The translations under genes and the position numbers were made by a program. Under the pieces are notes generated by a model, which saw only the letters and a list, made by a program, of their open reading frames with translations, was not told where the DNA came from and did not search any database. From Candidatus Nosocomiicoccus stercorigallinarum (GTDB lineage: Bacteria > Bacillota > Bacilli > Staphylococcales > Salinicoccaceae): DNA of 35,188 bases. The stretch spans positions 1 through 35,188 of the forward strand of contig DWXM01000045.1 of NCBI GenBank assembly GCA_019119225.1, in the 5' to 3' direction. Below, piece after piece: positions 27,693 through 35,188 of the stretch. Numbering within the stretch: position 1 is the first letter of the stretch; every line of letters begins with the position of its first letter.

Positions 27693-27754
27693 ATTTAATG
27701 CATGATTATCTATCTAGTATAACTTGCAATTATATTTATGATAGGAGAAAGAAA

Positions 27755-28738
27755 ATGAAATATCGTATATTACTCTATTACCATTACGTGACAATTGATA
27801 ATCCCGAAGAGTTTGCTGCTGAACATTTACAGTTTTGTAAAGATCTCGGACTAAAGGGACGTATTTTAGTCGCAAATGAAGGAATTAACGGGACAGTATC
27901 TGGCGATTACGAGCAAACACAAAAGTACATCGACTACATGAATAATCATCCTCTATTTAAAGAGATGCCATTTAAAATCGATGAAGCAAACGAACATGCA
28001 TTCAAAAAAATGCACTGTCGTCCACGTCCAGAACTTGTTAACTTAAGCTTAGAAGATGACATTAATCCACATGAAATTACTGGTGAATATTTATCTCCAG
28101 AAGAGTGGATGGAAGCAATCCAAGACGAAAACACTGTCGTATTAGACGTTAGAAACGATTATGAATATGATGTTGGTCACTTCCGTGGTGCAATTAAGCC
28201 AGAAGTATCAACATTTAGAGATACACCTGATTGGGTGAGAGAAAACAAAGACTTATTCGAAGGTAAACGCGTCTTAACATACTGTACTGGTGGAATTCGT
28301 TGTGAGAAATTCTCTGGTTGGTTAAAACGTGAAGGTATCGGTGAAAACGTCGGTCAACTTCACGGTGGTATCGCAACATACTCTAAAAATGAAAACACTA
28401 AAGGCCAACTTTGGGACGGCCAAATGTACGTGTTTGATGAGCGTTTAACTGTACCAATTAACCAAGTAAATCCAACAGTCGTGGGTAGAGATCACTATGA
28501 CGGTACACCATGTGAACGCTATGTAAACTGTGCAAACCCAGAATGTAACGCACAAATTCTTTGTAGTAAAGAAAATCAAGATAAACACCTAGGTGCATGC
28601 TCAATGGAATGTGCTGAGCATCCTAGAAACAGATATATTATGGTTCACAACTTACCTCAAGAAGAAGTTGAAGAACGATTAGAAGAAATGCGCAACAGTG
28701 AGTTTGGTAAAACAGAAATGATCGGACCACGCGCGTAA
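27755..28738 (+). CDS. trhO: tRNA uridine(34) hydroxylase, rhodanese domain
   Basis: 327 residues from the ATG at 27755 ([12 protein letters not shown]), chosen over an upstream in-frame ATG at 27698 because GGAGAAAG lies just before it. An N-terminal acylphosphatase-like domain contains [17 protein letters not shown] rhodanese domain (about 118-210) has active-site loop C177-TGGIR-C182. A Cys-rich tail contains [14 protein letters not shown]. TrhO (YceA/YbfQ family) hydroxylates U34 of certain tRNAs to 5-hydroxyuridine using O2. Monocistronic, with own promoter and terminator. Confidence 0.93.
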
Positions 28739-28750
28739 TTATAATAATGG

Positions 28751-28784
28751 AGCGATTTACGCTGGTAAATCGCTTCTTTTTTTA
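28751..28784 (+). terminator. Terminator of trhO
   Basis: Perfect 10-bp stem AGCGATTTAC / GTAAATCGCT with loop GCTG, followed by TCTTTTTTTT. Confidence 0.88.
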
Positions 28785-28844
28785 TGGTTTTAATTCATTA
28801 TCGGAAAAGATCGAGTATTTTTACACAATCACTTTGTACAAAAG

Positions 28845-29005
28845 ATGATTTATGGGAAATCATAGTGTATTTTTCTACTATCATTTAAGTTAAATGTCGT
28901 TTTATCATAAGTAATAGTGTAATTGTTTACTATCTCTTAGTAAAACGAGCATTTTATCGCTAATCATAGTATTGAATTACACTATCATTTCTCATAAGCG
29001 ATAAA
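28845..29005. repeat. Tandem palindrome array with 52-bp period
   Basis: The 335-bp gap between trhO and the NlpC gene has no gene. It contains three copies of ATAGT-N10-ACTAT at 28862-28881, 28914-28933 and 28966-28985, their centres exactly 52 bp apart. The surrounding 30-bp blocks (28857-28886, 28909-28938, 28961-28990) are about 75% identical, and TTTTATC recurs at 28900 and 28952 with the same period. Additional inverted repeats are ATGATTT-N5-AAATCAT (28845-28863) and TTTATCGCT / AGCGATAAA (28953-28961 / 28997-29005), so the region could also fold as RNA. Confidence 0.7.
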
Positions 29006-29039: not shown

Positions 29040-29066
29040 AAGTGCATTTCTTATAGAAATGCACTT
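29040..29066 (-). terminator. Terminator of the NlpC/P60 gene
   Basis: Stem AAGTGCATTTC / GAAATGCACTT with loop TTATA, 8 bp beyond the stop codon. The minus strand continues with TTTTATTTAAATTAG. Confidence 0.75.
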
Positions 29067-29073
29067 ATATTAA

Positions 29074-29547
29074 TTAATACCTATAATACCCATCGACTTT
29101 ACCATGAACATAAGAGACTGCACGTAATCCGACACCCTCTTCAGGATTTAAAGCATCGACCATCATCCCGTCACCAACGTATACTCCAACGTGTGCAAAA
29201 TCATTAAAAAATACAAGATCTCCCGGCATTGGATCATTTACTTTTGTTCCTTCTTTTACTTGATCATATGTAGTTCTTGAGATTTGAATCCCTTTATACC
29301 CTCTCATAAATTGTTGAGCAAATGATGAACAATCTACATCCGTGTCTGAGTTACCACCCCAAACATATCTTTTTCCAACAGCAAGTTTTAACGCATATTC
29401 TGCAGCAGTTGTACTTGGTTGAACTATTTTTAGTTCTGAAGTCGCTGACGGTTTTATTGTTTTCTTTTCTAACATTAGAGCATGTACTTCAGATGTAAAG
29501 CTCATAGAAATGAAAGCCATTAGTAATAGTGATAAAACTAATCTCAT
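29074..29547 (-). CDS. Secreted NlpC/P60 peptidoglycan endopeptidase
   Basis: 157 residues. N-terminal signal peptide (about 1-23: MRLVLSLLLMAFISMSFTSEVHA, AxA-like cleavage after VHA). A short linker leads to the NlpC/P60 domain (about 46-157) with GKRYVWGGNSD, nucleophile C73 in VDCSSF, H119 in HVGVYVG and polar third residue N134 in ALNPEEG. Such enzymes cut cell-wall stem peptides. There is no LysM or SH3 wall-binding domain, so it is a minimal hydrolase. A perfect 17-bp palindrome lies in its leader. Confidence 0.88.
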   Translation of the reverse strand: MRLVLSLLLMAFISMSFTSEVHALMLEKKTIKPSATSELKIVQPSTTAAEYALKLAVGKRYVWGGNSDTDVDCSSFAQQFMRGYKGIQISRTTYDQVKEGTKVNDPMPGDLVFFNDFAHVGVYVGDGMMVDALNPEEGVGLRAVSYVHGKVDGYYRY

Positions 29548-34867: not shown

Positions 34868-34940
34868 TGAGCCGTACAGGAATCGAACCTGTGACCCTCT
34901 GATTAAAAGTCAGATGCTCTACCGACTGAGCTAACGGCTC
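34868..34940 (-). tRNA. tRNA-Lys (anticodon TTT)
   Basis: 73 nt. Acceptor GAGCCGT / ACGGCTC with discriminator A, D-arm GCTCAGTCGGTAGAGC, anticodon loop CTTTTAA, T-loop GGTTCGATTCC. CCA is not encoded. Confidence 0.95.
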
Positions 34941-34943
34941 ATA

Positions 34944-35015
34944 CTGGCCTGAAAGGATTCGAACCTTTGCATGACGGAGCCAAAATCCGTTGCCTTACCG
35001 CTTGGCTACAGGCCA
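34944..35015 (-). tRNA. tRNA-Gln (anticodon TTG)
   Basis: 72 nt. Acceptor TGGCCTG / CAGGCCA with discriminator G, anticodon loop TTTTGGC, T-loop GGTTCGAATCC. CCA is not encoded. Confidence 0.95.
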
Positions 35016-35022
35016 ATATTAA

Positions 35023-35106
35023 TGGTGGAAGGGGGCAGATTCGAACTGCCGAACCCGAAGGAGCGGATTTACAGTCCGCCGCGTTTAGCCACTTCGCTAC
35101 CCTTCC
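35023..35106 (-). tRNA. tRNA-Tyr (anticodon GTA) with encoded CCA
   Basis: 84 nt including CCA. Acceptor GGAAGGG / CCCTTCC, anticodon loop CTGTAAA, long variable arm typical of class II tRNA-Tyr (about CTCCTTCGGGTTCG), T-loop AGTTCGAATCT. It is the only tRNA of the four with a genomic CCA end. Confidence 0.95.
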
Positions 35107-35115
35107 ATAAAAAAA

Positions 35116-35188
35116 TGGAGAATGGCGGGCTCGAACCACCGACCCCCTGCTTGTAAGGCAGGTGCTCTCCCAGCTGAGCTAATTCTCC
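35116..35188 (-). tRNA. tRNA-Val (anticodon TAC)
   Basis: 73 nt, its 5' end at the last base of the window. Acceptor GGAGAAT / ATTCTCC with discriminator A, D-arm GCTCAGCTGGGAGAGC, anticodon loop CTTACAA, T-loop GGTTCGAGCCC. CCA is not encoded. More tRNA genes may follow beyond the window. Confidence 0.93.

Follow-up and report, generated by a model that had tools for sequence, protein, structure and literature searches.

BIME and BOX elements are intergenic arrays of palindromic modules, often located at 3' ends, and type III toxin-antitoxin systems such as ToxIN feature a tandem repeat adjoining a nuclease gene, with the array 5' of the toxin gene. RAYT-REPIN systems resemble the locus described here: a gene is flanked by its own palindromic repeats, which are extragenic and dispersed and are also known as tandem clusters, and the gene is inherited mostly vertically (PMC3116915, in part). 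SmdA of Staphylococcus aureus is a protein with the nuclease-related NERD domain (Pfam PF08378; PMC9040797, in part), and in passages of PMC10910872, NERD is mentioned once, in a figure legend. In the titles and abstract openings of the open-access literature searched, we found no description of a link between NERD, or arrays of the kind reported below, and repeats. Here, starting from an array of 52-bp units in Candidatus Nosocomiicoccus stercorigallinarum, we report that NERD genes are recurrently and specifically accompanied by helically phased arrays, mostly palindromic and private to each gene, of which dispersed copies also occur.

The window, that is, the whole stretch of DNA that was analyzed, comprises 35,188 nucleotides (contig DWXM01000045.1 of the genome denoted G000). 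A preliminary description pointed to three exact 20-bp ATAGT-N10-ACTAT palindromes spaced by 52 bp from center to center in a gene-free gap of 335 bp into which both flanking genes end, and all of this was confirmed. The repeat extends over the full 52 bp, palindrome included, and a terminator-like inverted repeat separates the array from each neighbor gene. The features are as follows.

27698-28738, plus strand: flanking gene for the oxygen-dependent tRNA uridine(34) hydroxylase TrhO (NCBIfam NF001133, above the cut-off)
28743-28782, plus strand: terminator-like inverted repeat with a T run at the TrhO gene end, outside the array (inverted repeat I2 and sequence)
28797-28834, no strand assigned: degenerate fourth repeat copy in the 52-bp register, with three core mismatches (repeat family D1)
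28846-28897, plus strand: 52-bp unit 1, with the dyad ATAGTGTATTTTTCTACTAT at 28862-28881 (alignment A1, row 1)
28898-28949, plus strand: 52-bp unit 2, with the dyad ATAGTGTAATTGTTTACTAT at 28914-28933 (alignment A1)
28950-29001, plus strand: 52-bp unit 3, with the dyad ATAGTATTGAATTACACTAT at 28966-28985 (alignment A1)
29040-29066, minus strand: terminator-like inverted repeat at the NlpC/P60 gene end, outside the array (inverted repeat I3 and sequence)
29074-29547, minus strand: flanking gene for an NlpC/P60 family protein (NlpC/P60 proteins head the NCBIfam matches, without exceeding the cut-off)

The concern that such a pattern might be frequent in shuffled AT-rich sequence was dispelled by simulating the window 300 times with a first-order Markov model, which yielded a mean of 0.06 and a maximum of 1 exact motif matches, with two exact motifs 52 bp apart in none of the 300.

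A sequence model, R1, was built from 62 aligned units of the family. The alignment has no gaps and a mean column identity of 73%, and the 52-bp consensus, TTTATC-nn-AAG-n-G-ATAGT-GTA-n4-TACACTATC-n-CTT-nn-GATAAA, is a gapped palindrome. Given that the entire unit is related between copies, with no unrelated spacer, a CRISPR array was ruled out. Between G000 and the congener G001, three orthologous array pairs (12 unit pairs) differ at 2 of 120 core positions, 14 of 192 positions of the outer arms, 29 of 120 positions of the N10 spacer, and 60 of the 192 remaining positions, which bears out the initial observation of a kept core with a varying loop. This conservation of the core is, as judged from the aligned sequences, the signature of purifying selection. 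The same orthologous arrays differ in copy number by whole 52-bp units, and some adjoining units of the window array are near-identical, as in a passive minisatellite, that is, a slippage-prone intergenic repeat without a dedicated partner. The gap-free alignment, the conserved cores, and the association with NERD genes described below all speak against that explanation, which we find hardly credible.

The palindromes had been interpreted as either protein-binding sites on one face of the DNA or conserved RNA hairpins. In the window family, standard arm-to-arm pairs fall short of their number in every one of 500 shuffles, which suggests that the symmetry is kept by something other than base pairing. 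In a set of 53 arrays, 192 stem cells show a one-sided change and 4 a two-sided one; three of these four are complementary, compared with 2.1 expected by independence. The lack of co-variation between the arms leaves RNA hairpins unsupported and fits recognition of double-stranded DNA better; protein sites on one DNA face, also favored by the conserved cores and spacing and the variable loops, are the best fit, although binding itself is presumed. Transcription of the array into hairpins, acting as a 3' UTR regulator or as an RNA resembling a type III antitoxin, would suit the placement of many arrays just 3' of a NERD gene, often within 50 bp. Besides the missing co-variation, this explanation has to contend with an Rfam search of the window that matched four tRNAs and nothing in the array, and with the terminator-like repeats that precede the array for both flanking genes in the window, and we consider it very improbable.

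A genome-wide motif search, suggested in the preliminary description, detected 16 exact ATAGT-N10-ACTAT sites on six contigs of G000, compared with one for the reversed control pattern, and the R1 search added a seventh contig (C57). At least seven arrays of the window family are present in this genome and at least nine in G001. With the best 150 candidates scored per genome, so that the figures are lower bounds, R1 has at least 66 two-strand matches in G000 and at least 108, at nine or more places, in G001. A second congener, G002, has one marginal match (E = 0.0075) among the matches listed, and at least three other genomes of the 35 searched, G000 included, have marginal matches only. Conservation in close relatives thus extends to G001 but not to G002, where no window-family array is present at any of the four loci testable with both flanks on one contig (TrhO/NlpC, ThiW-like/FemX-like, ABC-F/TsaD, and FAD protein/ThiM-like) and 5-35 bp lie between the aligned flanks; the flanks of a fifth locus, upstream of SufC, lie on different contigs, which places it outside this count. 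Some of the gene names for these loci and for the array contexts given below were assigned by reading the translations. The suggestion of a mobile repeat holds insofar as the array family recurs at a number of intergenic positions and G002 lacks it, but comparison with the empty sites in G002 disclosed neither target-site duplications nor clean junctions. Stretches with the 52-bp-spaced pair numbered zero in viral contigs, and genome contigs contained four unrelated single pairs (Candidatus Pacearchaeota, Streptococcus, Bacillus, and Gemella); the window array had no match in plasmids and phages.

The likely partner of the window array, which could not be seen from the window itself, is a NERD gene elsewhere in the genome, bracketed by arrays of the window family. 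In G001, the gene for a 321-aa NERD-domain protein (C1:1101460-1102422; PF08378, 56.8 bits) lies between two such arrays (L023), and in G000 the same gene is split by contig ends (the end of C51 and the start of C4), each outer side bearing an array. The gene is located between Maf and PsuG. In the comparison of G000 with G001, its two pieces have dN/dS values of 0.17 and 0.28, compared with 0.03 for TrhO. An IS3-like integrase gene (L023:6980-7801) lies right beside the second NERD-flanking array of G001, by chance or because this is a preferred insertion place. The Maf-side gene order is kept in G002, where the orthologous NERD gene has arrays that resemble the G001 array no more, or only slightly more, than expected by chance. 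None of the dispersed G002 arrays seen (L188 and L194, probably coding, were set aside) matches those at the NERD locus, so that cognate pairing is unsupported in G002. Three pieces of this genome, with no NERD gene in them, contain 51-bp arrays with TGTTAA/TTAACA arms (L183, L190, and L192), a distinct dispersed family.

NERD genes proved not to be confined to the array-bearing species: a NERD match was obtained in 35 of 60 relatives, mostly without the window array family. Taken at first as counter-evidence, these relatives led to the finding that most of the genes have an array of their own: NERD loci retrieved from 10 other genomes all possess a tandem array with a period of 42-52 bp and a different sequence. 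In the full sample, a tandem array lies no more than 500 bp from the NERD gene at 80 of 95 loci (62 of 75 unique loci and 18 of a further 20), and these 80 are spread over 43 of the 45 genomes examined (TRF, period 28-110, score at least 80, with the best of overlapping rows kept and rows outside these limits left out). The first 40 loci were chosen by genome from a listing after the arrays of 10 loci had been seen, about six of them repeating loci already seen (for example, L076, L083, L088, L096, and L101) and the remainder unseen; 20 more were chosen unseen from the listing, 30 came from a search with profile A2, and 7 from the original listing, with L136 and L143 left out as duplicates of L102 and L075. 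As a control, 20 pieces of 7 kb were drawn at random from six of these genomes and scored at period 28-70 and score at least 60; one contained an array, and this single array is a relative of the one adjoining the NERD gene at L094. Fifteen loci lack an array, also when the TRF threshold is lowered, and all seven examined paralogues of the window's genus are among them. Profile A2 detects the NERD subfamily in 90 of 398 genomes and in 47 of 146 genera of the class, and several paralogues can occur in one genome, each with different arrays.

Among the 80 array-bearing loci, the array is only 3' of the gene in 69, on both sides in 7, and only 5' in 4. A tandem repeat beside a nuclease-like gene recalls ToxIN and other type III toxin-antitoxin systems, but the NERD arrays lie 3' rather than 5', are dispersed without the gene, and come with no evidence of RNA structure, and we did not assign them to that class. 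As with BIME and BOX elements, the arrays are intergenic, consist of palindromic modules, and are often found at 3' ends; the sequence and the period are different, and here a dedicated protein gene adjoins the array, whose sequence is private to each gene. Copies away from NERD genes also lie mostly at the 3' ends of other genes. The arrays of G001, with contexts read from the ORF table, include 5 in convergent, 4 in tandem, and none in divergent settings, and those of a further genome, G011, include 5 convergent, 5 tandem, and 1 divergent (11 with both neighbors), against 19 convergent, 51 tandem, and 25 divergent among the 95 gaps of at least 150 bp in G011.

Resemblance between arrays is almost confined to close NERD relatives. 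Among 3160 pairs of array-bearing NERD loci, array similarity reached 16 or more in 13 of the 55 pairs whose NERD identity is 60% or higher, the other 42 staying under the threshold, and in 6 of the 3105 pairs below 60%; 18 of the 19 similar pairs score higher when both arrays are read in the same direction with respect to their genes. Dispersed copies are apparent in 407 kb of G011, where NERD-free pieces contain 12 arrays, all of which (12/12) resemble NERD-adjacent arrays: 5 match those of G011 itself, whereas 1 and 6 match the arrays of L065 and L208, respectively, which adjoin NERD genes of the congener G025. Two of the six L208-like arrays (L168 and L170b) have a score of 13, with the best of 300 shuffles at 13 and 11.

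The periods of 88 arrays are 31 (1 array), 41 (34), 42 (10), 50 (1), 51 (17), 52 (17), 53 (2), 61 (1), 62 (1), 103 (1), and 104 (3), that is, whole helical turns. The best-fit helix of 10.32 bp gives a mean cosine of 0.95 over the 88 arrays, two values of the period dominating in related genes so that these are not independent draws; with each of the 11 distinct periods taken once, the mean cosine is 0.89, and 2000 random sets reached no more than 0.85. Consensus units are palindromic at p < 0.05 in 39 of 64 arrays tested, the other 25 not being significant. Helical phasing, lasting cores, and dispersed intergenic places could also be the properties of binding sites for a chromosome-organizing protein, with NERD genes being neighbors for another reason. 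This architectural role appears improbable to us in view of the adjacency of arrays and NERD genes at 80 of 95 loci and the tracking of NERD kinship by array sequence; furthermore, no origin or terminus pattern was seen in G001, whose nine places are not clearly symmetrical around the origin (dnaA lies at 1 kb).

All 10 NERD proteins scanned exceed the PF08378 cut-off (33.8-61 bits versus 22.1), and it is this domain that they have in common with SmdA. The array-linked subfamily adds to it a putative zinc ribbon, a putative C-terminal winged-helix-like part, and the adjacent array. In 24 of 24 aligned proteins, G49, G52, E53, Q84, D86, and three cysteines are invariant, and E99, K101, and Q129 are nearly so; from the conserved residues of the motif in alignment A2 (GxxGE, QxD, E-x-K, and Q), the protein is predicted to be a nuclease. 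The C-terminal part can be tentatively read as a zinc ribbon followed by a winged-helix-like region from the cysteine pattern, weak matches, and inspection of the sequence; a PDB profile search returned weak zinc-ribbon matches only. A nuclease-like domain with a conserved motif, weakly similar to the NERD domain of defense proteins such as MAD6, PglW, and MkoA, and the presence of several paralogues per genome with different arrays would be compatible with defense, whereby the nuclease targets incoming DNA and the chromosomal arrays serve as a tether, self mark, or safety store. Yet, no NCBIfam family was matched at the cut-off, the matches being mostly confined to the NERD domain, the Maf-side gene order is kept in G002, and two queries found no NERD relatives on plasmids and phages or in viral contigs; we regard a defense function as unlikely.

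We consider it probable that the window array is a dispersed copy of the cognate repeat of the NERD protein, bound by dimers, spread by the nuclease, and persisting in a RAYT-REPIN-like manner. Under this scenario, the protein, with its endonuclease-like domain, zinc ribbon, and winged-helix-like C-terminal part, would bind each dyad in double-stranded DNA as a dimer, with adjoining dimers aligned on one face of the helix. Cutting by the nuclease, combined with repair, would then amplify the array and seed copies into intergenic DNA, such that the enzyme and its repeat would be maintained jointly, in the manner of RAYT and REPINs. As in RAYT-REPIN systems, the NERD gene is flanked by its own palindromic repeat, which is also dispersed extragenically. 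The RAYT is, however, a Y1 HUH transposase, whereas the partner here is a NERD-domain protein, and the arrays consist mostly of 41-53 bp units spanning whole helical turns, with no hairpin co-variation. The Y1 transposase (PF01797) was detected in none of the three genomes of the genus, compared with 5 of 14 control genomes, and a RAYT origin was rejected; lacking the defining enzyme, the NERD-array pairing is not classified as RAYT-REPIN despite its proposed similar mode of working.

More generally, we lean slightly toward the view that these loci represent an apparently undescribed, widespread element of Bacilli, in which a sequence-specific NERD nuclease and its own helically phased palindromic array, in several distinct versions per genome, co-evolve and seed copies, as an independent counterpart of RAYT-REPIN. 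If so, the enzyme-plus-dispersed-palindrome lifestyle emerged a second time, around an unrelated enzyme, and could account for part of the intergenic repeats of Bacilli. The pairing offers a candidate function and natural substrate for a common, uncharacterized branch of the NERD nuclease domain, and, because array and protein diverge together, the many private protein-site pairs provide material for reading the DNA recognition code.

Several other features were observed in the window or near the arrays. At the window end, four tRNA genes lie on the minus strand (34868-35188). Between the ABC-F gene and tsaD, one array of G000 adjoins what we take to be a DnaA-box-like cluster (TTATCCACA, TTATACACA, and TGTGTATAA; L006:6940-7010, contig C17), which is kept in the G001 and G002 alignments. 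What is presumably a TPP-riboswitch-like leader upstream of a ThiM-like gene also adjoins an array (L009:5930-6010). The ThiW-like gene terminates within the first array unit (L008:1200-1769; L022:4973-5566), and its stop codon and last residues therefore come from the array.
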